The translations under genes were made by a program, and so were the position numbers. Positions 18,919 through 38,145 of a DNA stretch of 64,000 nucleotides are shown piece by piece. Below the pieces are notes generated by a model that was given only the letters and a program-made list of their open reading frames with translations, did no database searches and was not told the DNA's origin. The stretch covers positions 1 to 64,000 of the forward strand of contig CALWDX010000070.1 of NCBI GenBank assembly GCA_944376805.1, written 5' to 3'. Position 1 is the stretch's first letter. Each line of letters starts with the position of its first letter. This stretch comes from an uncultured Clostridia bacterium. Lineage in GTDB: Bacteria; Bacillota; Clostridia; Lachnospirales; CAG-274.

Positions 18919-18934
18919 AAGTTTGTGAAAAATA

Positions 18935-18963: not shown

Positions 18964-18970
18964 AAAAAAG

Positions 18971-19257: not shown

Positions 19258-19307
19258 AATTTAATTATACAATAAAAGAAATAATTTGTAAAGGGAGAAT
19301 ATAAAAA

Positions 19308-19506: not shown

Positions 19507-19556
19507 AAATTAATTATATAATAAAAGTTATAATTTGTAAAGTAGGAGATTGAAAA

Positions 19557-21380: not shown

Positions 21381-21414
21381 AAATTATGATAAAATATAAA
21401 TATAGGAGTTAATA

Positions 21415-22206
21415 ATGGACATTGAAAAGTGGGAAGATTTGACTATAAGTAATGATTTTATATTTGCAAAATTAATGACTGATAAAGAAATATGTAAAGA
21501 AATAATAGAAAACTTACTACACATAAAAATAAAAGACATAAAATATATACAAGAACAAAAAACTATAAATATAAAATATGACGCAAAAAGCATAAGGCTA
21601 GATGTATATGTAGAAGCAGATAATAAAATATACAACATAGAAATGCAAGTGGTAAATAAAAAAGATTTAGCCAAAAGAAGTAGATACTATCAAGGGCTTA
21701 TAGATTTAGATACAATAGAAAAAGGCGAAACATATAAAAAATTAAAAGAAAGTTATGTAATATTTATATGTACATTTGACCCTTTTGGAGAAAAACTACC
21801 TAAATATGAATTTAGATATTATTGCAAAGATAAAAAAGAGCTAGAGCTAAAAGACGAAGCATATAAAATATTTTTTAATGCAAAAGCAGTTAATGAAGAA
21901 AAAGATAAAAATATAAAATCATTTTTAAAGTATTTAAACGGCGAAAAAGATGATAATAAATTTATAGAAAAAATAGATGAAAAAATAAAGAAAATAAAAG
22001 ATAACAAAGAATGGAGGCAAGAGTATATGACACTTTTAATGAGAGAAAAAGAAATAGCTGAAGAAAACTTTGAAAAAGGCGTAAAAGAAGGATTAAAAGA
22101 AGGTATTAAACTCCTAAAAGAATTTAATATACCTAATAATGAAATAGTAAAAAGAATAATGAAGGATTATCATTTAACAGAAGAAGAAGCTAAAACTTAT
22201 TTATAA
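21415..22206 (+). CDS. Rpn-family PD-(D/E)XK nuclease
   Basis: The 263-residue protein matches the Rpn/'PD-(D/E)XK family transposase' group: N-terminal DLTISNDFIFAKLMTDKEIC, then RLDVYVEADNKIYNIEMQV with the D...E-x-Q nuclease core, and a C-terminal coiled, helix-rich tail with repeated KEGLKEGIKLLKE. Rpn proteins are RecA-independent recombination-promoting DNA endonucleases in E. coli, and related proteins have been linked to phage defence. It sits between mod and res with its own RBS and a terminator behind it. It may be an additional effector of the restriction island. Confidence 0.85.
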   Translation: MDIEKWEDLTISNDFIFAKLMTDKEICKEIIENLLHIKIKDIKYIQEQKTINIKYDAKSIRLDVYVEADNKIYNIEMQVVNKKDLAKRSRYYQGLIDLDTIEKGETYKKLKESYVIFICTFDPFGEKLPKYEFRYYCKDKKELELKDEAYKIFFNAKAVNEEKDKNIKSFLKYLNGEKDDNKFIEKIDEKIKKIKDNKEWRQEYMTLLMREKEIAEENFEKGVKEGLKEGIKLLKEFNIPNNEIVKRIMKDYHLTEEEAKTYL

Positions 22207-22216
22207 ACTTAATCTT

Positions 22217-22247
22217 AACCAGTAGAAATAAAATCTACTGGTTTTTA
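22217..22247 (+). terminator. Intrinsic terminator between rpn and res
   Basis: AACCAGTAGA pairs with TCTACTGGTT, loop AATAAAA, then a T-run. Res transcription must therefore read through or use a nearby promoter. Confidence 0.7.
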
Positions 22248-22264
22248 TAAGGAGGGTTGAAAAA

Positions 22265-25200
22265 TTGAAAATTAAATTTAAAGAACAATCATTTCAAAAA
22301 CAAGCTATTCAAAGTGTTGTAAATTTATTTAATGGACAAAACAAACAAGATTATACCACAACATATAACAATGATGACACTCAAATGACTTTTATAGCTA
22401 ATGATATTAGCTTAAATTACATAAATATACCTAACGAAAAAATACTTGAAAATATGCAAAGAGTACAAAAACAAAATATGTTGCAAACTACAAATGATAT
22501 ACAAAACAACACTTTTTGCATAGAAATGGAAACAGGCACAGGTAAAACTTATACTTATACAAAAACTATTTTTGAACTTAATAAAAAATATGGCTTTAAA
22601 AAATTTATTATAGTTGTACCAAGTATTGCTATTAAACAAGGTGTGTTTAAGTCTTTTCAAATAATGGAAGATGAGCTTAAAAAATATAACGTAAATTACA
22701 ATGTTTTTATTTATAATTCTAGTAAATTAAATCAAGTTAAAAGCTTTGCTACCTCTAATAATATTGAAATAATGATTATAAATATTGACGCTTTTAAAAA
22801 AGATGAAAATATTATAAATCAAGATAATGACAAATTAGCTAGAACTCCAATAGAATATATTAAAGAAACTAACCCTATTGTTATTATAGATGAGCCTCAA
22901 TCAGTGGATAATACAGAAAAATCTAAAGATGCTATAAACTCTCTTAACCCTTTAGCAATTTTAAAATATTCTGCTACACATAGAGAAAAAATTAATCTAA
23001 TTTATAGATTAACACCAGTTGATGCTTTTCAAATGGGTATAGTTAAGGGCATTTCTGTTGCTAGTGTTTCTTCTTCACAAGATTTTAATACACCTTATTT
23101 AAAACTTTTAGATGTATCTATGGAGAATGGTGTAACTGGTGGTATAAACTTTAAAGCTAAATTAGAACTAGATATATTAAAAAATGGGAAGATTACAAGA
23201 ACTAAAAAAACGCTAAAGCAAAATGACGATTTAGAACTTATTACTAATAGACCAGAATACAACGGCTATATAATTACAAATATAGATTGTACTGAAAATA
23301 ATGAGCATATAGAATTTGCTAATACTGAAACTTTAAAATTAGGCAAAGCAATAGGAGATATAGACGAAAATTTAATAAAAAGAGAACAAATTAAACGTAC
23401 TATTGAGCAACACCTTGAAAAAGAACTTATTTATACAGATTTAGGAATAAAAGTTTTATCTTTATTTTTTATTGATAGAGTAAATAATTATAGGTTGGAT
23501 AATGGAGAAAAAGGTATATACGCTCAAATGTTTGAAGAATGTTATACAGAGCTTATAAACTTGCCTAAATATGAAATATTAAAGGAAAGATTTACACAGC
23601 CAATATACAAGATACATAACGGTTATTTTTCTAAAGATAAAAAAGGTAATTTAAAAAATACTAAAGGGGAAAGCAATGAAGATGAAAATACTTATAAAAC
23701 TATTATGCAAGATAAAGAGTATTTATTATCCTTTGAGTGTCCTTTAAGATTTATTTTCTCTCATAGTGCTTTAAAAGAGGGCTGGGACAATCCTAACGTT
23801 TTTCAAGTTTGTACTCTTATCGAACAAAAATCAAAATTCAGTGCAAGACAAAAAATAGGTAGAGGCTTAAGGCTATGTGTTAATCAAGATGGAGAACGTA
23901 TAGAAGATAAAAATATTAATATATTGCACATTATAGCTAATGAAAGCTTTGAAGACTTTGCTAAAAACTTGCAAAAAGAAATTGAAGAAGAAACTGGCTT
24001 AAAATTTGGTAGCATTGATATAACTTCTTTTATAGGTATTACCTATGAACAGACTATTATAGAACAAGTTAATATAAAAAATGAAGAAGCTACTGAAATT
24101 TTAAATCATTTTCAAAAAGTAGGTTACGTTGACAATAAAGGTAATGTTGATACTGAAAAAATTAAAAATGATATAAAAGATGATTTTTTTAATATTCCAG
24201 AAAAATTTGAAAATGTTAAAAAAGAAGTTGAAACTATATTTACACAGCAAAAAATTGAAAATATTAATACAGAAGTATTAACTAATATTACCTATGAAAA
24301 AATTACTAAAGAAGAAAAAACAACAACAGAAGATGACGCAATAGAAATCTTTAAATCTTTTAAAGATAATAAATATATTGATAATAAAGGACAAGTTACT
24401 ACCACTTTGAAACAAGATTTAGAAACAGGTAATTTAAAATTACCAGAAAGATTTGAAAATGCTAAAAATAATATAAATAATATTGTTATAAAATCTACTA
24501 TGAAATTACCTATTAATAATGCTAATAAACAAGTATTAGTTAAGTTAAATAAACAAGTATTAGTAAGTCCAGAATTTTTAGAGTTATGGGAAAAAGTAAA
24601 ATATAAAACAAAATATAGATTTAAACTAGATGAAGAAACATATAAAAAAGAATGTATCCAAAAGTTAAAAGAAATGCCTACAATACATAAAGTTAGAATT
24701 GAAACTACAAATGCAGATATTAATGTAGAAAAAGACGGTGTTTTTTCTCAAGAAAAAAATAAACAATTTACAAATATAGATAATAAAGAATATGATTTGA
24801 CTTTAGAAAATTTATGGGAAATAGCTGAAAAATCTTCTGTACATATAAATTTAGTCTTAGAGGTGCTTTATGAAAGTGGTAGACTAAATGAAATTTATAA
24901 TGACCCTATAAAATTTACAGAACAAGTAATTGATATTTTAAAAGAAGTACAAGCTAAAACTATTATTGATGGTATATATTATATAAAAAATGAAGATGAA
25001 GAATATTATATACAAGAAGTTTTTGATACAAGTGAAATAATTGCTTATTTAGATAAAAATGCACTTAAAATTGAACATAATAAAACACCTTATGATTATG
25101 TAGTTTATGATAGTGAAACAATAGAAAAAAGTTTTGCTAAAGCTCTAGATAATGACCCTAGTGTAAAAATGTTTTTTAAATTTCCATCAAGGTTTAAAAT

Positions 25201-25411
25201 AGATACACCTATTGGTAGCTATAACCCAGACTGGGCAGTTTATAAGCAAGAAAATAACACAGAAAAACTTTATTTTGTTATAGAAACTAAAGGCAGTACA
25301 AATAGTTATGATTTAAGAATTAAAGAAAATTTAAAGATAAAATGTGGTAAAAAACATTTTGAGGCACTACAAACAAATATTGATTTTGAAGTTAGTAATA
25401 AGTGGATATAG
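22265..25411 (+). CDS. res: Type III restriction-modification system, restriction helicase-endonuclease (Res)
   Basis: The 1,048-residue protein starts at TTG after GGAGGGTTG. It has the superfamily 2 helicase motifs METGTGKTYTY (Walker A, about residue 88), IIDEPQS (DEAD-like box, about 208) and RQKIGRGLRLCVNQ (motif VI, about 530), a long middle region, and a C-terminal PD-(D/E)XK nuclease core with NPDWAVY and VIETKG (about 988-1006). All key motifs appear intact, so the system is probably active. Together with Mod it forms the complex that translocates or slides on DNA and cuts between head-to-head target sites. Confidence 0.93.
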   Translation: MKIKFKEQSFQKQAIQSVVNLFNGQNKQDYTTTYNNDDTQMTFIANDISLNYINIPNEKILENMQRVQKQNMLQTTNDIQNNTFCIEMETGTGKTYTYTKTIFELNKKYGFKKFIIVVPSIAIKQGVFKSFQIMEDELKKYNVNYNVFIYNSSKLNQVKSFATSNNIEIMIINIDAFKKDENIINQDNDKLARTPIEYIKETNPIVIIDEPQSVDNTEKSKDAINSLNPLAILKYSATHREKINLIYRLTPVDAFQMGIVKGISVASVSSSQDFNTPYLKLLDVSMENGVTGGINFKAKLELDILKNGKITRTKKTLKQNDDLELITNRPEYNGYIITNIDCTENNEHIEFANTETLKLGKAIGDIDENLIKREQIKRTIEQHLEKELIYTDLGIKVLSLFFIDRVNNYRLDNGEKGIYAQMFEECYTELINLPKYEILKERFTQPIYKIHNGYFSKDKKGNLKNTKGESNEDENTYKTIMQDKEYLLSFECPLRFIFSHSALKEGWDNPNVFQVCTLIEQKSKFSARQKIGRGLRLCVNQDGERIEDKNINILHIIANESFEDFAKNLQKEIEEETGLKFGSIDITSFIGITYEQTIIEQVNIKNEEATEILNHFQKVGYVDNKGNVDTEKIKNDIKDDFFNIPEKFENVKKEVETIFTQQKIENINTEVLTNITYEKITKEEKTTTEDDAIEIFKSFKDNKYIDNKGQVTTTLKQDLETGNLKLPERFENAKNNINNIVIKSTMKLPINNANKQVLVKLNKQVLVSPEFLELWEKVKYKTKYRFKLDEETYKKECIQKLKEMPTIHKVRIETTNADINVEKDGVFSQEKNKQFTNIDNKEYDLTLENLWEIAEKSSVHINLVLEVLYESGRLNEIYNDPIKFTEQVIDILKEVQAKTIIDGIYYIKNEDEEYYIQEVFDTSEIIAYLDKNALKIEHNKTPYDYVVYDSETIEKSFAKALDNDPSVKMFFKFPSRFKIDTPIGSYNPDWAVYKQENNTEKLYFVIETKGSTNSYDLRIKENLKIKCGKKHFEALQTNIDFEVSNKWI

Positions 25412-25414
25412 TTT

Positions 25415-25448
25415 AAAAAAGAAGATAGTTTTAACTATCTTCTTTTTT
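25415..25448 (+). terminator. Strong terminator after res
   Basis: AAAAAAGAAGATAGTT pairs with AACTATCTTCTTTTTT with a two- to four-base loop. Confidence 0.85.
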
Positions 25449-25500
25449 AATACTTAAAAAATTACATAATTTAAAACAAAAAGATAATATTTTGCATATT

Positions 25501-25741
25501 TTTACAAAAAAATACTAAAAAATTATGATATTATAGACATAAATAGAATTAATATAAATTTTGGAGTATTTGTGTAAAAATGTTAATTTATATTTTTAAT
25601 TTAATAATGCTTTTAGAATGGGTAGACATAATTTTATTATTTGTCTACTTTTTTTTTATAAAAAAACTAAAACTATATAAAATAAGAAGTCCACCTTATT
25701 TCTCTACTTAATTTTGAAAATAAAAATTTAAGTAAAGAAAT
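25501..25741 (+). promoter_or_regulatory. Leader of the sigma-like gene with possible attenuator
   Basis: TTTACA (25501-25506) and TATGAT (25524-25529) are 17 bases apart. A terminator hairpin follows at 25622-25648 (GTAGACA/TGTCTAC) with a long T-run to 25658. A 41-codon frame starting at ATG 25580 (MLIYIFNLIMLLEW...) runs through the hairpin. The gene at 25754 lies beyond the terminator, so either attenuation or a short stand-alone transcript is possible. Nothing else is visible in this gap. Confidence 0.4.
25622..25658 (+). terminator. Intrinsic terminator in the leader of the sigma-like gene
   Basis: A seven-base stem, GTAGACA (25622-25628) with TGTCTAC (25642-25648), is followed by about ten T residues. 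No recognised gene ends here. Confidence 0.6.
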
Positions 25742-25753
25742 TTGGAGGTAAAA

Positions 25754-26152
25754 ATGAATAATAAAAAATATATTTATGTAAAAAAATATAAAAATGAGAT
25801 TACAGAGAAAATTGAGGTAAGTGAAGAAATTTATACTGAGTATTGGAAATACACAGAAAAAGAAAAATATTTTAAAAAATATGAAAGAAATAAAATAAGT
25901 ATTGAGGATATGGTAATTGATTGTGAATTTAATTTAGAAGAACACATAATAACAAAACTTATGATAGATAAATTAAATACGGCATTGTCTAAATTGAATG
26001 ATGAAGAATTTAAAATTATAACAGACATATTTTTTAAAGCAAAAACAGAAAGAGAATTAGCAAAAGAATTTAATTGTGAATTTTATAAAGTACATACAAA
26101 AAAGATTAGTATATTAAAAAAATTAAAAATTATGTTAAAAAATGAAATATAG
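25754..26152 (+). CDS. Sigma-70 region 4-like DNA-binding protein of the ICE
   Basis: The 132-residue protein starts at ATG 25754, directly after TTGGAGG; an in-frame TTG 12 bases upstream is part of the binding site. The C-terminal half (LNDEEFKIITDIFFKAKTER, then ELAKEFNCEFYKVHTKKISI) is a helix-turn-helix like region 4 of sigma factors. No region 2 is visible. Comparable small sigma-like proteins occur upstream of the integrase region in Tn916/Tn1549-type elements and are thought to regulate recombination or transfer genes. It stands between the res gene and the recombinase module. Confidence 0.75.
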   Translation: MNNKKYIYVKKYKNEITEKIEVSEEIYTEYWKYTEKEKYFKKYERNKISIEDMVIDCEFNLEEHIITKLMIDKLNTALSKLNDEEFKIITDIFFKAKTERELAKEFNCEFYKVHTKKISILKKLKIMLKNEI

Positions 26153-26339
26153 TATCAAAAAATACAAAACTAAAACAAAAAATTGTTTAATACTTATAGA
26201 TTTCAACTTAAAAAAAAATAATTTTTGTTAAAAATTTTAAACTTCAAGATACAGTTTCACTCCTTTATATATAGAGGGATATTTTTATACCTCTATGTAC
26301 ATTGAAAATTGAATACACAATATAATAAATACAAAGTTA

Positions 26340-26545
26340 AATAAATGGAGCAACATATTAAAATACGCTTGTCGGTAAATATTTGTAATAATAAGGTTTG
26401 TGATGAACTAATTGCCAAGATATTTATTTAATATAATGATACTTCTACATAGTCTTAACTAATCGTATAGAGTGTAGTCCGTCGTTTAGGGGGAAATCCA
26501 AATGGGGTTATGGTTGTCTATCTAATCAATAGACCGTTTGTTATA
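26340..26545 (+). ncRNA. Candidate structured RNA upstream of the recombinase module
   Basis: No reading frame of note occupies 26153-26706. Within it, 26340-26545 is clearly less AT-rich than its surroundings and contains runs such as TACGCTTGTCGGTAAA, GTAGTCCGTCG, GGGGGAAATCC and GGGGTTATGG, with stems CTACA/TGTAG (26445-26449/26473-26477) and GTCTAT/ATAGAC (26516-26521/26529-26534). From memory, similar non-coding segments occur before recombinase regions of clostridial Tn1549-like elements. Upstream, 26271-26296 holds a further hairpin (ATAGAGG/CCTCTAT). Its role could be transcript control or transfer origin; I cannot decide. Confidence 0.45.
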
Positions 26546-26561
26546 TTTATATTTTTAAAAT

Positions 26562-26647
26562 TAAGTAGTAGAAAAGGAAAATAGGCTAATAGGTTATGAA
26601 AAAATAATAAAAATTTAAAGCCTATTTTTCTAAATGTGTTACTTAAT
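26562..26647 (+). terminator. Long imperfect terminator hairpin before the DUF6870-like gene
   Basis: AAATAGGCT (26579-26587) pairs with AGCCTATTT (26619-26627), followed by TTC. Outer arms extend the stem through TAGAAAA/TTTTCTA and TTAAGTA/TACTTAA. Confidence 0.55.
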
Positions 26648-26706
26648 TGTCATTTTTTTGTTAAAAGGATAATAAAAATTTAAGATAAAAATAAATAGGA
26701 GTTATT

Positions 26707-26955
26707 ATGAATAATATAGAGAAATTAAAAGAATTACCTATGAATGATATTGTAGATATAAGTAATATATCATTTAATAAAAGATTAGATAAAAAAGAAA
26801 GAATGATAGACTACATTAATAAAATTAAAAATCCATATTGTTATAAATGTAATGGTTATAAAGTTATTTTAGTTTTTGATGAAGAAGAAAATAGTATTAG
26901 TTTAGAGGAAATTTTAATTAAAAATGTAGATGTTATAAAGAAGTTAAGTAAATAA
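26707..26955 (+). CDS. DUF6870-like small ICE protein
   Basis: The 82-residue protein contains ERMIDYINKIKNPYCYKCNG, which I recognise from a small conserved family (DUF6870-type) encoded just upstream of recombinases in Tn1549-like elements. A Cys-x-x-Cys pair lies in YCYKCNG. The start has TAGGAG upstream. Possible accessory role in excision or its regulation, inferred from position between the structured RNA and the serine recombinases. Confidence 0.7.
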   Translation: MNNIEKLKELPMNDIVDISNISFNKRLDKKERMIDYINKIKNPYCYKCNGYKVILVFDEEENSISLEEILIKNVDVIKKLSK

Positions 26956-27093
26956 ATTGTTTATTTCAATAAAAAAATATAATATTGGCACTAGACTCAA
27001 GGTATTAATTGTGTTAAAATAATAAAAAATAAGACCGATTAAAATCTTGATACTCTAGGTATTTTTAATAGAATATTATAGGAGTGTTAAGTA

Positions 27094-28728
27094 ATGAAAA
27101 AGTTTAAAACTAGCCTTTATTTAAGGTTATCAAAAGAAGATGAAAAAGTAGGAGAAAGTGAAAGTATTGTAAATCAAAAAATACTACTTAAAAATTTTAT
27201 TAAATCGAATGAAGATTTAGAACTTGTTTCAATTAAAATTGATGATGGATATTCTGGAAGTAATTTTGAAAGACCAGCATTTAAAGAATTAATGGAAGAT
27301 GTAAGAAACAAGGAAATTAACTGTATTGTGGTAAAAGATTTTTCTAGGTTTGGTAGAGATTTTATAGAGGTGGGAAAATATTTAGAAGAAATTTTCCCAT
27401 TTATGAATGTACGTTTTATATCAGTAAATGATAATTATGACAGTTTTAAAAGTAAAGACTTAACAGATAATTTAATAATACCTTTTAAAAACTTACTTAA
27501 TGATACATATTTAAGAGATATTTCATTAAAAGTAAGAAGTAGTATTTATGCTAAAATTGATAAAGGAGAGTATATAGGAGCATTTGCAACTTATGGTTAT
27601 TTAAAGACAAAAGATGAAAATAATAAAAATGTTCTTATAGTAGATGAAGAAGCCTCAAAAGTAGTAAAAGATATTTTTAAATATAGGTTGAACGGATTAA
27701 GTGCAAGTAAAATTGCTATAAAGTTAAATGAGCAAGGTATATTGTCTCCTATGGAATATAAAAATTCAATAGGGCTGAAATTTAATACAAGTTTTAGAAA
27801 AAATAATAGGGGTAAGTGGACATCACAAACAATTTTTAGAATTTTAGGCAACCCAGTATATATAGGTACACTTGAACAAAAAAAGTATTTAAAGCCTAAC
27901 TATAAAATTAAAAAAACTATTATTGTACCAAAAGATGATAGGGTAATAATAGAAAATAATCACGAACCTATAATTGATAAAGATGTATTTTATACTGTGC
28001 AAAACTTAATGTTGCGTGATACAAGAGTAGCACCTAATAAAGAAAAAGTTTATTTGTTAAGTGGAATTGCTATTTGTGGAGAATGTGGTTCAAATTTAAT
28101 AAGAAAAAATAATGGAACTAAAGATAAGCCATATATATATTATGTTTGTAGTAATTCAAAAAATAAAAAAGGCTGTATAGGGGCTAATATAAGTCAAGAT
28201 AAACTAGAAAAAATTATATTTGAAGTTATAAAAAATCAAATAGATAATGTTATTCAAATAGAAAATATTATTGATGGAGTAAAAGATGCGTCTTATTTAT
28301 CACAAAAAATAGAAAAGATAAATAAATTTATTACTAATAAAGAAAAAGAACTAATAAAATATAAAAGTATTAAATTAAAACTATACGAAGATTTAAAAGA
28401 AGATATATTAACTCAAAAAGATTATGAAGAATTTAATATTTTATATACAAAAAAGATAGAGTTAATTGAAAAAGAAATAACAAAATATAGAAATGAATTA
28501 AATGATATATCTAAAAATCCAAAAGATGAAAAAATATGGATAAATTCTTTTAAAAAATATAAAAGTATAAATTCCTTAAATAGAGAATTAGTTGTAAGTT
28601 TGATTAATGAAATAAAAGTTTATAATAATAAAAATATAGAGGTTCATTTTAAATATGATGATGAATACAAAAAAGTATTATCATATTTAAAAGAATTAAA
28701 TAGTTTACAGGTGGCTTGTAATGGCTAG
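27094..28728 (+). CDS. Large serine recombinase 1 of a triplet
   Basis: The 544-residue protein has the resolvase-type catalytic domain (residues 1-150; SLYLRLSKEDE with the nucleophilic Ser, and KDFSRFGRDF with catalytic Arg), a recombinase domain (about 160-290), a zinc ribbon (CGECGSNL...YYVCSNSKNKKGC) and a C-terminal coiled coil (about 395-480). Large serine recombinases integrate and excise elements by cutting both strands at short att cores. It overlaps the second recombinase by 8 bases, so the three are translationally coupled. Confidence 0.95.
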   Translation: MKKFKTSLYLRLSKEDEKVGESESIVNQKILLKNFIKSNEDLELVSIKIDDGYSGSNFERPAFKELMEDVRNKEINCIVVKDFSRFGRDFIEVGKYLEEIFPFMNVRFISVNDNYDSFKSKDLTDNLIIPFKNLLNDTYLRDISLKVRSSIYAKIDKGEYIGAFATYGYLKTKDENNKNVLIVDEEASKVVKDIFKYRLNGLSASKIAIKLNEQGILSPMEYKNSIGLKFNTSFRKNNRGKWTSQTIFRILGNPVYIGTLEQKKYLKPNYKIKKTIIVPKDDRVIIENNHEPIIDKDVFYTVQNLMLRDTRVAPNKEKVYLLSGIAICGECGSNLIRKNNGTKDKPYIYYVCSNSKNKKGCIGANISQDKLEKIIFEVIKNQIDNVIQIENIIDGVKDASYLSQKIEKINKFITNKEKELIKYKSIKLKLYEDLKEDILTQKDYEEFNILYTKKIELIEKEITKYRNELNDISKNPKDEKIWINSFKKYKSINSLNRELVVSLINEIKVYNNKNIEVHFKYDDEYKKVLSYLKELNSLQVACNG

Positions 28729-30397
28729 AAAAAGTAGAAAAAATAATAACCAACAATGTAAACTTGCAACCAATAAAGTTATTTATAACGTAGGAATTTA
28801 TGTAAGACTATCATTTTCACTAAAGAATAAAGTGTATAAAGAAAATGATACAATAGAAAATCAAAAAGATATTATTCTAAAATATATAAAAGATAAAAAA
28901 GAATTTAATTTAATAGGTATATACGAAGATGACAACAAAACAGGTACAAATTTTGATAGAAAAGGCTTTGAAAAACTTTTAGAAGATGTAAGAAAAGGAA
29001 TAATTAATTGTATAATAGTAAAAGATTTATCACGATTTGGGAGAAATTATATAGAATGTGGTAATTATCTTGAAAAAATATTCCCATTTTTAAATGTAAG
29101 GTTTATAGCAATAAATGATAATTATGACAGTAATAGTGAAAATTCAAATGAAGTATTATTAATGCACCTTAAAAACTTTATGAATGATATATATTCAAGG
29201 GATATTTCTAAAAAGATTAGTACCGTTATAAATGAAAAGCAAAAAAAAGGTGAATTTATAGGTAACTGGGCTTGTTATGGATATTTAAGAGATGAAAAGA
29301 ATAAACATAAAATAGTTATAAATGAAGAAACAGCATCTATAATTAAATATATTTTTGATTTAAGGTTAAAAAATTATGGTTATACTAAAATATCTAAAAT
29401 ATTAAATGAAAAAAATATATTATCACCATCAGCATATTTATATAAAAAGGGATATATAAAGTCAGAAAAGCTAAAAGATAGTAAGTGGACAGATAGTGTT
29501 GTAAAGAAAGTATTAACAAATGAAGTATATATAGGCAACATTGTTCAAGGAAAAACAAAAAAAGACTTATCAGAAAATAAAGAAAGAACTAGATTAGATA
29601 GTGATAAATGGATAGTAGTTGAGAATACACATATACCTATAATATCTAAAGAAATATTTTACAAAGTACAGGATATAAATAATAAATCTAGTGAAAAGTA
29701 TAAGTCAAATAAAAAATGCAGTAACAAAAATAGTGAAAATATATTTAAAGGTTATTTAAAATGTGGTATTTGTGGTAAGTCTTTAAGTATACAAAGAGGC
29801 GTAAGAAAAACAGTAGATAATGTTAATTATTTTGTATGCACTAATAGAAAAGTAGGAGTTTGTAATCTAAAATCTATAAAGGAAGAAGTCTTAAAAAATA
29901 TTGTTTTTAATGAAATAAAAAACCAAGTTAATATAGCTATAAATTTGAAAAATATAATCGATAAAAATATTGAAATATTTTATTCAAAGCAAAATACATT
30001 AAAACTTGAAATAAAAAATATTAATAATGAAATAAATAAAATAAAAGATTTTTATCATACTATTTATGAAGATTATACATTGGGATTATTAAATAAAGAT
30101 GATTATATTTTTACTAGAGGTACTTATGAAGAAAAAGAAAAGATTTTTAAAGAACGAAAAAGCATTTTAGAAAATCAGTTAGAAAAGCTGGAAAACAATT
30201 TAATAAAAGAAAATATATTTATAACTAACACTTTAAAATGTAAAAATAAAAAAATATTAACAAAAGATTTATTAGAATTATTAATAAAACAAATACTTAT
30301 ATTTGATGATAAAACTATACAAATAACTTTCAATTATAATTTAGGATATAAAGAAATAATTAATACAATGAAAGATGTGTTAGAAAATGTTGTATAA
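28721..30397 (+). CDS. Large serine recombinase 2 of a triplet
   Basis: The 558-residue protein has the catalytic Ser in VGIYVRLSFS, the Arg in KDLSRFGRNY, a recombinase domain with KWTDSVVKKVLTNEVYIGN, a zinc ribbon (CGICGKSL...YFVCTNRKVGVC) and a coiled coil (about 420-490). ATG has AGGTGG upstream and lies inside the end of recombinase 1; the end overlaps recombinase 3 by 11 bases. All catalytic residues are present, so each of the three may be active. They could work as a set or at different sites. Confidence 0.95.
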   Translation: MARKSRKNNNQQCKLATNKVIYNVGIYVRLSFSLKNKVYKENDTIENQKDIILKYIKDKKEFNLIGIYEDDNKTGTNFDRKGFEKLLEDVRKGIINCIIVKDLSRFGRNYIECGNYLEKIFPFLNVRFIAINDNYDSNSENSNEVLLMHLKNFMNDIYSRDISKKISTVINEKQKKGEFIGNWACYGYLRDEKNKHKIVINEETASIIKYIFDLRLKNYGYTKISKILNEKNILSPSAYLYKKGYIKSEKLKDSKWTDSVVKKVLTNEVYIGNIVQGKTKKDLSENKERTRLDSDKWIVVENTHIPIISKEIFYKVQDINNKSSEKYKSNKKCSNKNSENIFKGYLKCGICGKSLSIQRGVRKTVDNVNYFVCTNRKVGVCNLKSIKEEVLKNIVFNEIKNQVNIAINLKNIIDKNIEIFYSKQNTLKLEIKNINNEINKIKDFYHTIYEDYTLGLLNKDDYIFTRGTYEEKEKIFKERKSILENQLEKLENNLIKENIFITNTLKCKNKKILTKDLLELLIKQILIFDDKTIQITFNYNLGYKEIINTMKDVLENVV

Positions 30398-31901
30398 TAT
30401 AGGAGCATATTTAAGAATATCTATTGATGATAAAAATAAGAATGAAAGTGAAAGTATAGTAAATCAAAAAAATATAATAAATTCTTTTATTAATTCAAAT
30501 AATGAATTTAAAAATAGTAATATTTATTATTATAAAGATGATGGTTATAGTGGAAGTACTTTTCAACGTCCAGCTATAAATAATTTAATTGAAGATGTTA
30601 AAAACAAAAAAATAAATTGTATAATAGTAAAAGACTTATCAAGATTTGGGCGTAATTATATTGAAGTTAGTGATTATCTATATAAAATTTTTCCGTTTTT
30701 AAATGTAAGATTTATATCAATAAATGATAACTATGATAGTAAATTTAATAAAGATGGACTATTAGATTTAGATGTAGCTTTTAAAAATATTTTACATAGC
30801 TATTACTTAAAAGATTTATCTAAAAAGAGTATGACAAGCAAAAGGGTATTGGCAGAAAGAGGGTGTTATATATCTTCTTATGCTCCGTTTGGATATAGAA
30901 AAAATAAAGAAACTAAAAGACTGGAAATAGTAGAAGAACAAGCTGAAATTGTAAGAATGATTTTTGACCTTATAGTAAAGGGAAATAACTATGTTGAGGT
31001 GTGTAAAATATTAAATGCTAAAAATATTCCAGTTAAAAGTGATTTTAAAATTAAAAATGGAGAAAGAAAAGTATATAGTAAAAAAAATGATAATAAAATA
31101 TGGAAATCACAAGATATAGTAAAAATAATTAGTGATGAAGTATATATAGGAAATACTATAAATTTCAAAAGAAAAAGAGTAAAATGTGGAAGTTTAAAAA
31201 CTATAAAATCTAGTGAAGATGAAATAGTTAAAGTTGAAAATACACATAAAGCTATAATATCTAAAGAAATTTTTTATAAAACATTTCCAAAAAAGAAAGA
31301 ATCTACTTTATCTACTGTAAAATCTATTTTTGCATTTAAAATAAAATGTGATTGTTGTGGTTATGCTTTAAGAAAAAGGGAAGTGTATAGAAATAAAAAT
31401 AAGGAAAATAAGTATTTTTGCAAAACTATAAGAGAAAAAGAAGAATTGAATTGTTCACGAGAGCCAGTTTTTGAAAATGATTTAAAGAAATTGGTATTTG
31501 AAAAATTTAAAGAGCAAATATCTATAAGGTATAATAGTATAGATAATACATACAATATAAATAAATTAAAAAATTCTATTTTGTTTTATGAAAATGAAAT
31601 AAGTAAATCTAATACAAGCAGAATGAAAAAGTATGAAGATTATATTGAAGGTATTATATTAAAGCAAGAGTATATAAATATAAAAAATGAATTAGAAGTA
31701 AATATAAATAGTTATTTATCTAAAATAAAAAAAATAAAAAAAGAGTTAGATATTCTTTTAGAACAAGAAAAAGAATTATGTTTAATAAGAAAATACTTAA
31801 ATAGTAAGGAACTTACAAAAGATATGGTAGATGAATTTGTAAAATGTATATATGTTAATGGTAAGGACAACATAAGAATTGAGTGGAATTTTGAAAACTA
31901 A
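30387..31901 (+). CDS. Large serine recombinase 3 of a triplet
   Basis: The 504-residue protein carries Ser in IGAYLRISIDD, Arg in KDLSRFGRNY, KIWKSQDIVKIISDEVYIGN in the recombinase domain, a zinc ribbon (CDCCGYALRKRE...YFCKTIREKEELNC) and a shorter coiled coil (about 385-470). It starts at an ATG inside the previous gene with only a weak binding site, implying translational coupling. It is the recombinase nearest to the att site (32434). One small gene separates it from the element's end. Confidence 0.95.
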   Translation: MLYNIGAYLRISIDDKNKNESESIVNQKNIINSFINSNNEFKNSNIYYYKDDGYSGSTFQRPAINNLIEDVKNKKINCIIVKDLSRFGRNYIEVSDYLYKIFPFLNVRFISINDNYDSKFNKDGLLDLDVAFKNILHSYYLKDLSKKSMTSKRVLAERGCYISSYAPFGYRKNKETKRLEIVEEQAEIVRMIFDLIVKGNNYVEVCKILNAKNIPVKSDFKIKNGERKVYSKKNDNKIWKSQDIVKIISDEVYIGNTINFKRKRVKCGSLKTIKSSEDEIVKVENTHKAIISKEIFYKTFPKKKESTLSTVKSIFAFKIKCDCCGYALRKREVYRNKNKENKYFCKTIREKEELNCSREPVFENDLKKLVFEKFKEQISIRYNSIDNTYNINKLKNSILFYENEISKSNTSRMKKYEDYIEGIILKQEYINIKNELEVNINSYLSKIKKIKKELDILLEQEKELCLIRKYLNSKELTKDMVDEFVKCIYVNGKDNIRIEWNFEN

Positions 31902-31977
31902 TTAAGATATACTTGTAAATGTATTATAGATATTGTATAATTGAAAAAATATTTTATTAAAAGAAAGGAAGATTTTT

Positions 31978-32424
31978 ATGACCAATATAAAACAAAACAA
32001 ATATAATGACTATTATAAGGAAATAAAAGCTTTAAAACTTGAGTGGGAATGTTTTACAGCAACTTTTTGTAAAAATATACCAATAGTAACTAATATTATG
32101 ACTGGCGAAATTATACTATATAAAAGAGAATTAAATGAACAATGTTTTATGTATCAAGGGACTAAAAATATACTTGATAAAATAGAGGGTTATTTGGAAA
32201 GGGCAAAGACATCAAAAATAAAGTTAGAAGTTGTAAAAAATGATACTCATATAACTTATGTAAAAACTTTAAATGAATATTATAATCAAGTTGATTTTCT
32301 AATAATGGATATGAATTCAGTAAGAAGTTTAATTTATAGTGAATATGTTGAGATAAATTATTATAATTATCCTATTACAAATAATAAAATATATAATAAT
32401 AATTATAATTATCATATAAAATAA
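31978..32424 (+). CDS. Hypothetical protein at the right end of the ICE
   Basis: This 148-residue protein has no recognisable domain. It has AAAGGAAG before its ATG, a Tyr/Asn-rich C-terminus (YNYPITNNKIYNNNYNYHI) and two Cys residues near the N-terminus. It lies between the recombinases and the att core, so it is within the element. Accessory functions in excision (directionality factors) often lie here, but its size and composition do not identify it. Confidence 0.55.
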   Translation: MTNIKQNKYNDYYKEIKALKLEWECFTATFCKNIPIVTNIMTGEIILYKRELNEQCFMYQGTKNILDKIEGYLERAKTSKIKLEVVKNDTHITYVKTLNEYYNQVDFLIMDMNSVRSLIYSEYVEINYYNYPITNNKIYNNNYNYHIK

Positions 32425-32433
32425 TTAAAAATT

Positions 32434-32465
32434 TTTTTAAGTCCTATATTGACAGAAGCCGACCA
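32434..32465. repeat. Attachment-site core repeat, copy 1 (ICE right end)
   Basis: This 32-base stretch, which includes AAGTCCTATATTGACAGAAG, is identical at 37018-37049. To the left of both copies the sequences are unrelated; to the right both continue as homologous but diverged cotJC coding sequence. That pattern fits a recombination core at the left edge of, or inside, the repeat. Confidence 0.7.
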
Positions 32466-32781
32466 TGGCTTAGGAATATTCCCTGCAAATGCTGGTGGAG
32501 TACCATTTTCAGCAGATGGACTTCAATCTACAGGTAACCCTGTTGTTGATTTATACGAAAACCTAGCAGCAGAGCAAAAAGCAAAAGCAACATATGAATA
32601 TATCTTAAATATGACAGACGACCCAGATGTAATAACACCTATTAAATTTTTAAGAGAAAGAGAAGTAGTGCATTTTCAACGCTTTGGTGAAGCTTTAAGG
32701 CTTGTTCAAGATTATTTAGATAGTAAAAGACAATTTATAATTGAAAAGCCTAATAATATGAGACCACAACCTAGAATGTAG
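32437..32781 (+). pseudogene. cotJC: cotJC 3' fragment, copy 1 (CotJC/manganese-catalase-type spore coat protein)
   Basis: The fragment encodes the C-terminal part of a CotJC-like spore coat protein (manganese catalase superfamily): EADHGLGIFPANAGGVPFSA, LAAEQKAKATYEYIL and the metal-binding FLREREVVHFQRFGEAL. A stop codon lies just upstream in frame, and the first 70-80 residues of the family are missing. It was cut by integration at the core repeat and should not be expressed as a working protein. Compared with the copy at 37021 the protein is almost identical, but many third codon positions differ, so this is not a fresh duplication. Confidence 0.85.
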
Positions 32782-32797
32782 TATATAAATATAATAG

Positions 32798-32842
32798 AAA
32801 GACTTATTAGCTTTAAAATGTAGAGATTAATAAGTCTTTTTA
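32798..32842 (+). terminator. Terminator after cotJC fragment 1
   Basis: AAAGACTTATTA pairs with TAATAAGTCTTT and ends in a T-run. It differs in sequence from the terminator after fragment 2. Confidence 0.75.
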
Positions 32843-32918
32843 TCCTTATTAAAAATCTTTTATGTGTAACATATGTTTGAGCTTTAACATTTTCAGTTTA
32901 TTATTTTTAAAATTATGC

Positions 32919-32975
32919 TTGACAAAATAAGTAATATACTATACTATAATATAATATAAGTTAACTAAAGGTAAC
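32919..32975 (+). promoter_or_regulatory. Promoter and putative iron operator of the siderophore transporter operon
   Basis: A perfect TTGACA (32919-32924) is 17 bases from TACTAT (32942-32947), overlapping TATAAT (32945-32950). Directly downstream is a 16-base dyad of the form GTTA-N8-TAAC (GTTAACTAAAGGTAAC, 32960-32975) and another TTAACTAA. A DtxR/IdeR- or Fur-like repressor is the expected user, given the operon. The same dyad form recurs at 51975-52015. Confidence 0.55.
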
Positions 32976-33019
32976 ATATTTTAACTAAAAACAACAAGTA
33001 TTTAAGGTGGAGGAATAAT

Positions 33020-34066
33020 ATGAAGTTTAAAAAAATAAGTTTAATTTTAACTTTAGCTTTAGGTATTGCTATTACAGGGTGCTCAAATAACTCTGAACAA
33101 ACATCACAAAATAATAATTTAGATAATGAAGTTAATACTAATGAAATAAAAAATGAACAGTATCCTATTATAATAAATCACGCATTTGGTGAAACAATAA
33201 TAGAAAGCAAACCAGAACGTATAGCAACAATAGCTTGGGGAAATCAAGATGTTCCATTAGCACTTGGAGTGGTTCCTGTTGCTATACCAAAGGCTAATTA
33301 TGGTGTTACTGATGAAACAGGATTATTACCTTGGACAAGTGAAAAATTTAAAGAATTGGGAGAAGAAAATCCTAATACTTTTGATGAGGTAGATGGGTTA
33401 GATTTTGAGTCGATAAGTGCATCAAACCCAGATGTTATATTGGCTGCATCTTCAGGTATAACAAAAGAAGAATATGATTTATTAAGTGAAATAGCTCCTG
33501 TTGTAGCATATCCAGAATTACCTTGGCAAACTAAATGGAGAGAACAAATAATTTTAAATTCAACAGCTATGGGTATGGAAGAAGAAGGGAAAGAACTTGT
33601 TTCAAATTTAGAAAATATCATAAAAGAAGAAACTAGTAAATATCCACAAATAGAAGGCAAGAGTGCTGCATTTTTCTATTTTAACCCATCAGATTTAGGA
33701 AACTTTTCTGTATATTTACCAGGAGATTCTAGAGCAGATTATCTTATAGATTTAGGACTTATTCTTCCTGAAAGTATTTCAGAACTTTCAAAAGAATCTA
33801 ATTCTTTTTATTTAGATTTAAGCTCTGAAAATGCTGAAGTTTTAAATGATATAGATGTTATATTATGCTATGGAGATGAGAATTTATTAAAATCTTTACA
33901 AAAAGATAAATTACTAAGTACTATACCTGCTATAAAAAGAGGGTCTGTTGTACTTATAGAAGATGGAACTCCACTTGCAGCTTCTGCTACACCGTCAGCT
34001 TTATCTATACCATATACTATTGAAGAATATGTTAAAATAATTAGTGAGGCAGTTGATAAAATATAA
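33020..34066 (+). CDS. Iron-siderophore ABC transporter, substrate-binding lipoprotein
   Basis: The 348-residue lipoprotein has a signal peptide with lipobox (ITGC) and an Asn/Glu-rich tether. The FecB/FhuD-type binding fold is marked by ESKPERIATIAWGNQDVPLA and by the long helix linking two lobes. It captures ferric siderophore outside the membrane and hands it to the permease pair downstream. ATG follows GGTGGAGG. The stop overlaps the next start by one base, so the four genes form one operon under the promoter at 32919. The whole operon sits between two cotJC fragments, so it may be cargo of an integrated element. Confidence 0.9.
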   Translation: MKFKKISLILTLALGIAITGCSNNSEQTSQNNNLDNEVNTNEIKNEQYPIIINHAFGETIIESKPERIATIAWGNQDVPLALGVVPVAIPKANYGVTDETGLLPWTSEKFKELGEENPNTFDEVDGLDFESISASNPDVILAASSGITKEEYDLLSEIAPVVAYPELPWQTKWREQIILNSTAMGMEEEGKELVSNLENIIKEETSKYPQIEGKSAAFFYFNPSDLGNFSVYLPGDSRADYLIDLGLILPESISELSKESNSFYLDLSSENAEVLNDIDVILCYGDENLLKSLQKDKLLSTIPAIKRGSVVLIEDGTPLAASATPSALSIPYTIEEYVKIISEAVDKI

Positions 34067-35061
34067 TGAAAATAAAATTTATAAGTATGTCATTACTACT
34101 AATATTATTATTAGTATTTTGTATATTTAGCTCATTAGCATTTGGTTCTAAAAATATTGATTTAATAACAGTTATAGATACATTAAAAAATCTAGATAAT
34201 AACAATTTTGAAGCAATAGTTGTAAAAGAAAGAATACCTAGAACAGTTTTCGGTCTTTTGGCAGGAGCTTCATTAGGAATATCGGGAACACTTATGCAAT
34301 CAATAACAAGAAATCCTATTGCAGACCCAAGTATTTTAGGTATAAATACAGGATCAGCTTTATTTGTTGTTTTAGGCATTGCATTTTTAGGTGTTACAAC
34401 TTATAAAGAATACATAATATTAGCATTATTAGGGGGATTAATTACAGCAATATCAGTTTATCTTATAGCATCTATTGGTAATGGAGGAATATCACCTATG
34501 AAACTTGCACTATCAGGTGTAATAATAAGTGCTATTTTGTCATCTCTAATAAATGTAGTTATGTTACCAAGAAGTGAAGTTATGAGTAGCTTTAGATTTT
34601 GGCAAGTGGGAAGTATTAGTGGGGTAACTTGGCAATCTATAATTGTAATGTTACCATTTATTATATTGGGTATAATATTAAGTTTTTTTGTAGCACCAGC
34701 TTTAAATGCACTAGCTTTAGGAGATGAAGTTGCAATAGGTTTAGGTGTTAAAGTAGGCTTAACTAGAATTATTAGCTCTATTTCAGTCATTTTATTATGT
34801 GGTACAGTAACTGCTTTAGCAGGACCTATAGGATTTATTGGTTTAATGGCACCACATATTATTAGAATGTTATTTGGTAATAATATTAAGTTTATAATAC
34901 CTATGTCGGCTTTTGTAGGTAGCATTTTATTAACTTTTTCAGACGTTATAGGAAGAATTATGGGTTCTCCTAGTGAGCTTGAAGTTGGTATAGTTACAGC
35001 TTTTATAGGTGCACCTATATTTATTATTATTTCAATGAAAGCGAAGGTGCGTTCATTATGA
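34066..35061 (+). CDS. Iron-siderophore ABC transporter permease 1 (FecCD family)
   Basis: The 331-residue, highly hydrophobic protein has about nine membrane helices and FecCD signatures: RIPRTVFGLLAGASLGISG, TRNPIADPSILGINTG and GPIGFIGLMAPHIIRML. It forms the channel with the second permease. The start overlaps the preceding stop (TAATG) and its end overlaps the next gene by four bases, giving translational coupling. Confidence 0.92.
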   Translation: MKIKFISMSLLLILLLVFCIFSSLAFGSKNIDLITVIDTLKNLDNNNFEAIVVKERIPRTVFGLLAGASLGISGTLMQSITRNPIADPSILGINTGSALFVVLGIAFLGVTTYKEYIILALLGGLITAISVYLIASIGNGGISPMKLALSGVIISAILSSLINVVMLPRSEVMSSFRFWQVGSISGVTWQSIIVMLPFIILGIILSFFVAPALNALALGDEVAIGLGVKVGLTRIISSISVILLCGTVTALAGPIGFIGLMAPHIIRMLFGNNIKFIIPMSAFVGSILLTFSDVIGRIMGSPSELEVGIVTAFIGAPIFIIISMKAKVRSL

Positions 35062-36083
35062 AAGAAACAGATATTATTAGTAAAGGTTATTTAAAAAGAA
35101 AGAAGAATTCAATATTTATAACAATAATTTTATTATTAATAACCATAAGCTTATGTTTTAGTATGTTAATGATAGGTAAAGAATATTACTCATTAGAAAC
35201 AGTAATAAAAGTTTTATTGGGGCAAGAAATAGATGGTGCTAATTTTGCTATATCTTCAATAAGGCTTCCAAGAATGTTATCAGGGCTTTTAGTTGGAATA
35301 TCACTTGCTATTGCAGGAAATACATTTCAAACTATATTAAGAAACTCTTTAGCCAGTCCAGATGTTATAGGTATTAGTGCAAGTTCAAGTGCAGCAGCGG
35401 TATTTTGCATTTTAGTTTTAAATTATTCTGGAGCTATTGTATCAATAATAGCTACAATTTTTGGAATACTTATAACTACACTGATTTATATTATTTCAAA
35501 AGGAAATGTATTTTCTAATAATAGACTTATATTAATAGGTATAGGCGTTCAAACTATGTTAAATGCATTTATTTCTTATATTATGGTTAATGCAAATGAA
35601 TATGATGTTACAAAAGCATTAAGATGGCTTAGCGGTAGCTTAAATGGGGTTCAAATGAAAAGTATACCTAGCTTATTTGTTATAACTATTATTTTTACTT
35701 GTATAATATTACTTTTGGAGAATCATTTAAAAGTTATGGAATTAGGTGAAGATTTATCTATTTCTTTAGGGGTAAATACCAATTTAATAAGAATAGTACT
35801 TATAATAAGTGCAGTTTTTCTTATTGCTTTTTCTACTTCTGTAACAGGACCAATATCTTTTATAGCGTTTTTATCTGGTCCAATATCTAAAAGGTTAGTA
35901 GGGACAGGGTGTAAAAATATATTTATATCTGGTTTAATAGGAGCTATTTTAGTTTTATCATCTGATTTAATAGGACAATTTGCTTTAAATACAAGATATC
36001 CAGTTGGTGTTATAACAGGAGTTTTAGGAGCACCATATCTTTTAATATTATTACTTAAATTAAATAAAAAGGGTGGTGTATAA
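35058..36083 (+). CDS. Iron-siderophore ABC transporter permease 2 (FecCD family)
   Basis: The 341-residue permease is the partner of the preceding protein: RLPRMLSGLLVGISLAIAGN, NSLASPDVIGISASSSAAA and GPISFIAFLSGPISKRL. The N-terminus has a basic cytoplasmic stretch (KGYLKRKKN) before the first helix. Its ATGA start overlaps the stop of permease 1. The ATPase gene starts directly after it. Confidence 0.92.
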   Translation: MKETDIISKGYLKRKKNSIFITIILLLITISLCFSMLMIGKEYYSLETVIKVLLGQEIDGANFAISSIRLPRMLSGLLVGISLAIAGNTFQTILRNSLASPDVIGISASSSAAAVFCILVLNYSGAIVSIIATIFGILITTLIYIISKGNVFSNNRLILIGIGVQTMLNAFISYIMVNANEYDVTKALRWLSGSLNGVQMKSIPSLFVITIIFTCIILLLENHLKVMELGEDLSISLGVNTNLIRIVLIISAVFLIAFSTSVTGPISFIAFLSGPISKRLVGTGCKNIFISGLIGAILVLSSDLIGQFALNTRYPVGVITGVLGAPYLLILLLKLNKKGGV

Positions 36084-36084
36084 T

Positions 36085-36885
36085 ATGTGTAATAAACAAA
36101 TATTAAAAGGCAACAATTTAGTTTTAAGTTATGAAAATAGAGAAATAATTCATAATGTAGATATAACTATACCACCTAATAAAATAAGTGTAATAATAGG
36201 TTCTAATGGATGCGGAAAATCTACATTATTAAAAAGTTTTGCAAGATTATTAAAACCTAAATCAGGAAATATAACTATAAATGATAAACAACTCAAAGAA
36301 TTTCATTCTAAAGAGTTAGCTCAAATTTTAGGTTTATTGCCACAATCTCCAATTGTACCAGAGGGAATAAGTGTATTTGATTTAGTATCTAGAGGAAGAT
36401 TTCCTTACCAAAGTTTTTTAAAGGGTAGCTCTAATGAAGATAAAAAAGCAGTTGAAGAGGCTCTTAAAATTATGGATATAGAAGAACTAGCAAATAGAAA
36501 TGTAGATGAATTGTCTGGAGGACAGCGTCAAAGGGTATGGATAGCTATGGCACTAGCACAACAAACAGATATATTATTATTAGACGAACCAACAACTTAT
36601 TTGGATATATCATATCAAGTTGAAATTTTAGACCTATTAACAGATATAAATAAAAAACATAAAACAACAATAGTTATGGTATTACACGATATAAACTTAT
36701 CAGCAAGATATGCAGATTATATATTTGCTATAAGTAAAGGAAAGTTGATATGTGAAGGAACACCATCAGAAGTTATATCAGAAGAATTAATAAAAAAGGT
36801 ATTTAATTTAGATTGTGTAGTTATTCAAGACCCTATTTCAAGAACACCTATGATTGTACCAAAAGGTAGGCATAATATCAAATAA
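36085..36885 (+). CDS. Iron-siderophore ABC transporter ATPase (FecE/FhuC-like)
   Basis: The 266-residue protein has all ABC motifs: Walker A GSNGCGKSTLLK, Q-loop LPQSP, signature LSGGQRQRVWIAMAL, Walker B DILLLDEPTTYLD and switch His in VLHD. ATG 36085 follows the stop of the permease gene by one base and has GGGTGGTG upstream; an in-frame GTG at 36073 lies inside the permease gene and is less likely. It drives uptake. No clear terminator follows before the second cotJC fragment. Confidence 0.92.
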   Translation: MCNKQILKGNNLVLSYENREIIHNVDITIPPNKISVIIGSNGCGKSTLLKSFARLLKPKSGNITINDKQLKEFHSKELAQILGLLPQSPIVPEGISVFDLVSRGRFPYQSFLKGSSNEDKKAVEEALKIMDIEELANRNVDELSGGQRQRVWIAMALAQQTDILLLDEPTTYLDISYQVEILDLLTDINKKHKTTIVMVLHDINLSARYADYIFAISKGKLICEGTPSEVISEELIKKVFNLDCVVIQDPISRTPMIVPKGRHNIK

Positions 36886-37017
36886 TTATTAAAATAAAAG
36901 TATCACATTATAAAGAAAGTAAATATTTTAGTTATAGAATACAGAAAAAATATATTTGTGTTGTATTTAATAAAAATATATGAATAAATTATTTTTATTA
37001 AACATAAATATTATGAA

Positions 37018-37049
37018 TTTTTAAGTCCTATATTGACAGAAGCCGACCA
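37018..37049. repeat. Attachment-site core repeat, copy 2
   Basis: Identical over 32 bases to 32434-32465. It lies at the left edge of the second cotJC fragment, next to the chromosomal tRNA cluster. Confidence 0.7.
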
Positions 37050-37365
37050 CGGTTTAGGAATTTTCCCAGCAAGTGCAGGTGGTGTAGCTTTTTCAGCAGA
37101 TGGTTTACAATCAACAGGTAACCCTGTTGCCGATTTATATGAAAATTTAGCAGCAGAGCAAAAAGCAAAAGCAACATATGAATATATATTAAATATGACA
37201 GATGACCCAGATGTTATTACACCTATTAAATTTTTAAGAGAAAGGGAAGTAGTACATTTCCAACGTTTTGGTGAAGCATTAAGACTTGTGCAAGACTATT
37301 TAGATAGTAAAAGACAATTTATAATAGAAAAGCCTAATAATATGAGACCACAACCAAGAAAATAA
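37021..37365 (+). pseudogene. cotJC: cotJC 3' fragment, copy 2
   Basis: It encodes the same C-terminal CotJC segment as 32437-32781 (EADHGLGIFPASAGGVAFSA, then LAAEQKAKATYEYIL and REREVVHFQRFG), with few residue changes but many synonymous base changes, and again no 5' part. Because it is adjacent to chromosomal tRNA genes, it may be the native 3' end of the host gene, with copy 1 brought in by an element. The intact 5' half should lie beyond the left end of the ICE. Confidence 0.85.
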
Positions 37366-37473: not shown

Positions 37474-37554
37474 TGCCGCTGGTGGGACTTGAACCCACAC
37501 GAGAAAACTCGCTAGATTTTGAGTCTAGTGCGTCTGCCATTCCGCCACAACGGC
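37474..37554 (-). tRNA. tRNA-Leu (anticodon CAA)
   Basis: The minus-strand cloverleaf has acceptor stem GCCGTTG/CAGCGGC, a D arm, an anticodon stem CTAGA/TCTAG with loop CTCAAAA (anticodon CAA), the long variable arm typical of Leu tRNAs and a T arm with GGTTCAAGTCC. The CCA end is not encoded. Confidence 0.95.
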
Positions 37555-37704
37555 TAATACAAAATAATTATACATATATTTCAAATATTTGTCAATGAAA
37601 AAAGAAATTAAAAAATTTTTAAAAAAGTATTGACTTTTATTAAGTTATAATTTATAATAATGTTTGTTGTTAAAGTTTAATATAATATTTATTATATATA
37701 TTTT

Positions 37705-37787
37705 GCAGTCGTGGCGGAATTGGCATACGCGCTAGACTAAGGATCTAGTGGTCCTAGACCTTGGGGGTTCGAGTCCCCCCGACTGCA
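37705..37787 (+). tRNA. tRNA-Leu (anticodon AAG)
   Basis: Acceptor GCAGTCG/CGACTGC, anticodon loop CTAAGGA (anticodon AAG), long variable arm and GGTTCGAGTCC in the T arm. CCA is not encoded. It starts the plus-strand tRNA run. Confidence 0.95.
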
Positions 37788-37790
37788 TAT

Positions 37791-37862
37791 GCGCGAGTGG
37801 CTCAGTGGTAGAGCATCGCCTTGCCAAGGCGAGGGTCGCGGGTTCGAATCCCGTCTCGCGCT
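37791..37862 (+). tRNA. tRNA-Gly (anticodon GCC), copy 1
   Basis: Acceptor GCGCGAG/CTCGCGC, anticodon loop TTGCCAA (GCC), T loop GGTTCGAATCC. Identical to the copy at 37996. Confidence 0.96.
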
Positions 37863-37868
37863 TAATAA

Positions 37869-37940
37869 AGGGTTATCGCCAAGCGGTAAGGCACAGGGTT
37901 TTGATCCCTGCATTCGTAGGTTCGAATCCTACTAGCCCTG
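37869..37940 (+). tRNA. tRNA-Gln (anticodon TTG), copy 1
   Basis: Acceptor AGGGTTA/TAGCCCT, anticodon stem CAGGG/CCCTG with loop TTTTGAT (TTG), T loop GGTTCGAATCC, discriminator G. Confidence 0.94.
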
Positions 37941-37995
37941 TATTTTAAGCTATGGAGGTAAACTCCATAGCTATACAATTAAATATTTACACTCT

Positions 37996-38067
37996 GCGCG
38001 AGTGGCTCAGTGGTAGAGCATCGCCTTGCCAAGGCGAGGGTCGCGGGTTCGAATCCCGTCTCGCGCT
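37996..38067 (+). tRNA. tRNA-Gly (anticodon GCC), copy 2
   Basis: Same sequence as the tRNA at 37791, with anticodon loop TTGCCAA and a GCGCGAG acceptor stem. Confidence 0.96.
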
Positions 38068-38073
38068 TAATAA

Positions 38074-38145
38074 AGGGTTATCGCCAAGCGGTAAGGCACA
38101 GGATTTTGATTCCTGCATCCGTAGGTTCGAATCCTACTAGCCCTG
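38074..38145 (+). tRNA. tRNA-Gln (anticodon TTG), copy 2
   Basis: Same as the copy at 37869 except for compensated changes: anticodon stem CAGGA/TCCTG in place of CAGGG/CCCTG, plus one change near the variable loop. Anticodon TTG is kept. Confidence 0.94.

Follow-up and report, generated by a model that had tools for sequence, protein, structure and literature searches.

Why should an iron-transport operon lie between two diverged 3' fragments of the same spore-coat gene, cotJC, and where is the rest of that gene? The question is raised by the window analysed here, a stretch of 64,000 nucleotides corresponding to bases 1–64000 of contig C70, which belongs to a draft genome of 83 contigs from an uncultured Clostridia bacterium. 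A preliminary description of this DNA had proposed repeated integration inside cotJC, in which at least one incoming unit brought along a 3' end of the target gene. Both fragments are present as described (32434–32781 and 37018–37365) and start with an identical 32-mer (0 matches in 100 shuffles). They differ, as had been noted, mostly at synonymous positions, with 28 synonymous and 4 nonsynonymous changes over the 104 codons compared (dS 0.62, dN 0.016). Their coding parts have different closest relatives. Tail a (32461..32781, +), which encodes aa 99–204 and was delimited by tblastn, is nearest to the first cotJC tail of the congener G003 (dS 0.23), while tail b (37045..37365, +), regarded as the displaced host copy, is nearest to the uninterrupted gene of G007 (dS 0.25) and is followed by a flank common to G007, G005, and G006. 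In this host flank, six tRNA genes (37474..38145; ARAGORN and synteny) precede a ROK kinase gene (38386–39282, −; synteny). Directly behind the displaced tail, ARAGORN finds a tRNA-Gly/tRNA-Gln pair repeated twice in tandem at 37791–38145.

The remainder of the gene is found on a second contig, C44, and the left junction lies inside cotJC, as the preliminary description had anticipated. A genome-wide Pfam search places the 5' piece directly after cotJB, and a tblastn search with the uninterrupted protein of the congener G002 detects a third piece, covering aa 63–99, 4.8 kb beyond the 5' piece. This separate piece rules out a two-piece gene with one junction; thus, integration inside cotJC is site-specific and repeated as had been suggested, but the gene is cut by two mobile elements into three pieces rather than two, because an unrelated prophage-derived element occupies a second site (aa ~66). 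The order on C44 is cotJB, cotJC[1–65], the 4.8-kb element, cotJC[66–98], and the left end of an element resembling an integrative and conjugative element (ICE), and the order on C70 is the ICE right end, tail a, the fhu operon, tail b, the tRNA genes, and the ROK kinase gene. When the pieces are joined in silico at the shared cores, an intact ORF of 204 aa results with either tail. This is the only cotJC of the genome, as is also the case in G002. Both elements, at aa 65/66 and 98/99, therefore lie within the coding region of a sporulation gene, their precise removal restores the frame in silico, and site-specific recombinases are encoded by both of them according to Pfam.

The element at aa 98/99, hereafter site III, occupies positions 1..32460 (+) of the window with its right part, as delimited by ORFs, Pfam matches, and the dyad arms of attL99 and attR99, and its left end (C44:1–8019) encodes ParA, ParB, and an SNF2/methylase protein. 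An attempt to join C44 and C70 by end overlap failed, and the ICE therefore has an unassembled middle. A TraG P-loop ATPase is recognized by Pfam in the ICE-like region, and no relaxase was seen in the scanned ORFs outside this middle part. Three tandem large serine recombinase genes stop 0.5 kb before the first cotJC fragment: recombinase 1 (27094..28728, +; Pfam Resolvase, Recombinase, and Zn_ribbon_recom), recombinase 2 (28721..30397, +; Pfam), and recombinase 3 (30387..31901, +; Pfam), the last of which forms a long branch in the recombinase tree. Recombinase 2 groups with full support (100/100) with the recombinase at the site-III junction of G004, although long branches leave the deep nodes of the tree unsure, and it is the best candidate for the site-III integrase. 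Other genes carried by the ICE include a type III restriction–modification system (methylase and restriction subunit by Pfam, 19557–25411), with a 263-aa ORF (21415–22206) between the two genes, and a gene whose 1897-aa product is a surface protein containing 13 repeats of the SpaA (prealbumin-like) type (4433–10126).

The att sites explain the shared 32-mer, which is identical in both fragments as reported yet lies mostly outside cotJC: it consists of the element-side P-arm of attR and a GA core, and cotJC contributes only its last few bases, from the core (32461 or 37045) onward. The attR of the ICE (32434..32465, +) thus comprises the P-arm, the GA core (32461–32462), and the start of the cotJC tail, and a second attR99 (37018..37049, +; core at 37045–37046) forms the right end of the intervening cassette. 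Because this 32-mer precedes each of the two tails, recombination is likely to have occurred twice at one site. At site III, the ICE half-sites pair as an imperfect inverted repeat around a GA centre, in which the arms of attL99 and attR99 are dyad partners, with TANGACTTAA at equal distance on either side of GA (17/31 positions, shuffle p = 0.007), and GA alone is common to attL and attR in G004. Dyad symmetry is also found at site I and at site II (aa 65/66), where the reconstructed arms agree at 23/28 positions around GA. GA is thus the probable core dinucleotide of both elements in this genome. A pattern search of viral contigs gave 0 matches to a free attP of site II, and for site III, where the pattern is too short, it returned chance matches only.

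The 4.8-kb element at site II contains a complete recombinase (Pfam), an SLH-domain protein, and a 60-aa ORF. The site-II elements of G003 and G005 are prophages, with phage-like ORFs in both and a holin and a terminase recognized by Pfam in G003. The 60-aa ORF has no Pfam family match and is also found in the full prophages of the relatives, the copy in this genome being fairly diverged; its retention and conservation make it a candidate directionality factor (RDF). The comparison did not support vertical inheritance of the site-II element throughout the genus, since the G003 and G005 recombinases share 88% identity versus 78% for the host flanks. No close phage relatives of the recombinases were found at ≥60% identity.

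Between the two tails, a cassette of 4.5 kb (32461..37044, +; delimited by comparison with G003) is organized as cotJC tail, cargo, and P-arm. The cargo is a four-gene iron-siderophore ABC operon comprising a substrate-binding protein (33020..34066, +; Pfam PF01497, Peripla_BP_2), a FecCD-type permease (34066..35061, +; Pfam PF01032), a second permease (35058..36083, +; an ORF assigned from its position and sequence, with no scan of its own), and an ABC transporter ATPase (36073..36885, +; Pfam PF00005, ABC_tran). The cassette holds this operon and the tail only; integration genes, transfer genes, and recombinases are absent from it. Positions 32564–37043 are 99.46% identical to G003, and this identity stops at the GA core, beyond which tail b and G003 are 91% identical, while the orthologous host flanks of the two genomes are 79.7% identical. 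These values and the affinities of the tails indicate that the cassette moved between species and that the tail native to the host has come to lie behind it. The comparison bears out the earlier suggestions that the fhu segment is mobile cargo and that a unit carries its own 3' end of cotJC, namely tail a as the left end of the cassette. Moreover, tail a has a mosaic structure, with an identity to tail 1 of G003 of 87% over the initial ~100 bases and 98% over the remainder, so that homologous recombination between tails also contributes.

In G003, the fhu cassette is found without the ICE at site III, as the first in an array of three cassettes. The second and third each end in attR99 and a further cotJC tail, the last of which is decayed; one carries genes for a two-component system and a sugar ABC transporter, and the other nitroreductase-like, zinc-dehydrogenase-like, and Rrf2-like genes (all named from sequence). 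No recombinase was found in the G003 cassettes. According to the preliminary description, both fragments and the operon in a strain free of the mobile element would have spoken against its model. This arrangement does exist in G003, but it is better read as the state after departure of the ICE, given that the 99.5% identity of the cassette stops exactly at the recombination core while the host flanks are only ~80% identical. A recombinase-free cassette behind cotJC in G005 (L051 5528–9268) carries a gene for a 1246-aa protein resembling a combined restriction–modification enzyme, likewise named from sequence, and judging from such gene content cassettes behind cotJC may carry defence genes.

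How such cassettes move can be envisaged from the arrangement of the att sites. With the ICE in attB ahead of the cassette, recombination of attL with the distal attR would release the ICE and the cassette together, and entry of this circle into attB of a new host would push the host's tail behind the cassette, producing the structure of the window. Recombination of attL with the proximal attR would instead release the ICE alone, leaving the gene whole at that site, the cassette in place, and the site free again. The window would thus represent the ICE-plus-cassette state, and G003, with its three cassettes, a later state in which the ICE has been lost. A different route, which appears doubtful, is that the cassette moves alone, as a circle with the P-arm, GA, and the cotJC tail that recombines with attB in the manner of SCC at rlmH. 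The G003 cassettes do stand by themselves, each with its own tail, such that the gene is whole after insertion; however, cassettes carry no recombinase, unlike SCC, where a ccrA/ccrB pair lies inside, attB × attR is not the usual serine-integrase pairing, and in the window the ICE and the cassette adjoin with matching attR sites. If cassettes and tails spread through homologous recombination between the ~320-bp tails, with no site-specific role, the mosaic start of tail a would be accounted for; this is unlikely as the whole explanation, because on the right the identity breaks off precisely at the GA core rather than within the tail and every cassette ends in attR99. An assembly or binning artefact could be suspected in a draft whose ICE spans a contig break, yet it is hardly credible, considering that the separate assembly of G003 contains this cassette too, with an identical right edge, that the host flank to the right of tail b recurs in G007, G005, and G006, and that the splits recur in many assemblies, including the single contig of G004. 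Joint exit of the ICE and the cassette is the probable route.

Interruption of cotJC extends well beyond this genus, a hotspot that, like the selection still acting on the split gene, was absent from the preliminary description. A cotJC match is present in 43/48 species of the host family, and in about 25 of these 43 the gene is split at about aa 32, 66, 98, or 130, a count made by inspection with breaks at contig edges left out. The gene is in four pieces in two species (G011 and G068), and many species with a split copy also retain an intact paralogue. Different large serine recombinases sit at the cotJC junctions, at 11–136 bp from most of those in the loci fetched. Mapped on the recombinase tree, the insertion site undergoes 6 changes, compared with 14.2 with shuffled labels (0/200 as low), and it follows from this tree that several integrase lineages reached the same gene. 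A small site-II element in G017 (L148 8026–12282) has as cargo a McrBC-like gene pair, named from sequence. In G004, the interval from attL99 to attR99 (L047 9071 to L048 4140) contains chromosomal-looking genes (pdxS/pdxT-like and tadA-like) and a serine recombinase with a shortened ORF, which suggests a degenerate element or a rearrangement.

Whether the split gene still functions bears on a further alternative, namely that the elements merely inactivate a dispensable cotJC and that the conserved look of its pieces reflects recent insertion. The second intact cotJC of many relatives agrees with this, and in genomes outside the genus such a paralogue implies that the split copy may matter less. 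Also in agreement with inactivation are the decay of displaced tails in G003 and G001 and the short recombinase ORF of G004, which together with the chromosomal-looking DNA between its att sites means that some splits may be permanent. Nevertheless, G005 and G006 have both interruptions (sites I and II) in common, and their collinear element DNA is mostly 94–96% identical against 96% in the host flank; hence, the splits most likely predate the divergence of these genomes. Over the three cotJC pieces, the pair shows 13 synonymous versus 1 nonsynonymous changes (134 and 499 sites, p = 2e-8), so the pieces are under selection while split. The four-piece cotJC of G011 and G068, where the insertions are undated, also has dN far below dS. 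Such constraint would not be expected in a gene that never becomes whole, and reassembly is therefore the simplest account; together with the lack of a second cotJC in G002 and in this genome, this makes plain inactivation quite improbable. All eight genomes of the genus (8/8) contain sigK, the match in G003 (G003:C17:7736–8398) reading through one TAG and starting further upstream than in its congeners, possibly as a frame-edge effect.

Reassembly of interrupted sporulation genes has precedents. The skin (sigK, C. difficile), SPbeta (spsM), and yin (yabG) elements are prophage-derived and split sporulation genes with large serine recombinases (PMC5025042, PMC4191935, PMC10747680), although as single interruptions of genes other than cotJC. 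The gin element in gerE of Bacillus cereus ATCC 10987 is a non-phage element with three serine recombinase genes and dyad-symmetric att, and its excision, aided by a small RDF, makes gerE whole again (PMC5595907). The ICE-like element resembles gin in having three serine recombinase genes, its location inside a sporulation gene, and its dyad-symmetric att site; however, gin is one element at one site, while cotJC houses two elements here and up to three in relatives, plus an array of cargo cassettes, and excision of the elements in cotJC would be expected by analogy. Accretion of ICEs with CIME cargo, which lacks integration and transfer genes and lies beside an ICE with the same att type, is also known (PMC5704250). 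The fhu cassette likewise lacks such genes and has an attR on its right, but its left edge is the 320-bp coding tail of the target gene, preceded by the ICE attR, instead of an attL; for this reason it is called CIME-like and not a CIME member. Tandem islands at ssrA in Dehalococcoides are bounded by repeats of the target 3' end, some with and some without serine-recombinase modules (PMC3146451); those repeats are of 20 bp and leave an intact RNA gene, in contrast to the long coding tails and split protein gene described here.

Taken together, cotJC is probably a docking hub that combines intervening elements of the skin and gin type with CIME-like accretion of cargo, a reassembled gene, and a cassette mobilizable in cis. 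In this genome, the gene houses a prophage remnant (4.8 kb, codon ~65) together with an ICE-like element (codon 98/99), and if both were precisely excised the 204-aa cotJC would be whole again, as with skin, SPbeta, and gin. Such excision would most likely take place in the sporulating mother cell, a timing suggested by the role of the gene and by the precedents (PMC5025042, PMC4191935, PMC5595907). A literature search, with preprints and most subscription papers outside its coverage, found no paper on insertions in cotJC, and each of the sporulation-gene interruptions it retrieved consists of one element in one gene (sigK, spsM, spoVFB, gerE, and yabG). In the host family, a gene of 200 codons is hit at four places by different integrase lineages, stays split through speciation under purifying selection, and has an array of mobile cargo behind it. 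A wider reading, for and against which the chances seem balanced, is that cotJC in the host family is a programmed gene-in-pieces, with up to four segments and three integrase elements, which several mutually orthogonal serine integrases would put together in every sporulating mother cell; integrase lineages of independent origin would have converged on a safe harbour, and the trailing array would spread iron uptake and defence genes between species. In the cotJC hotspot, a single gene provides several candidate integrase/att pairs, and the question of why mobile elements choose sporulation genes becomes testable.
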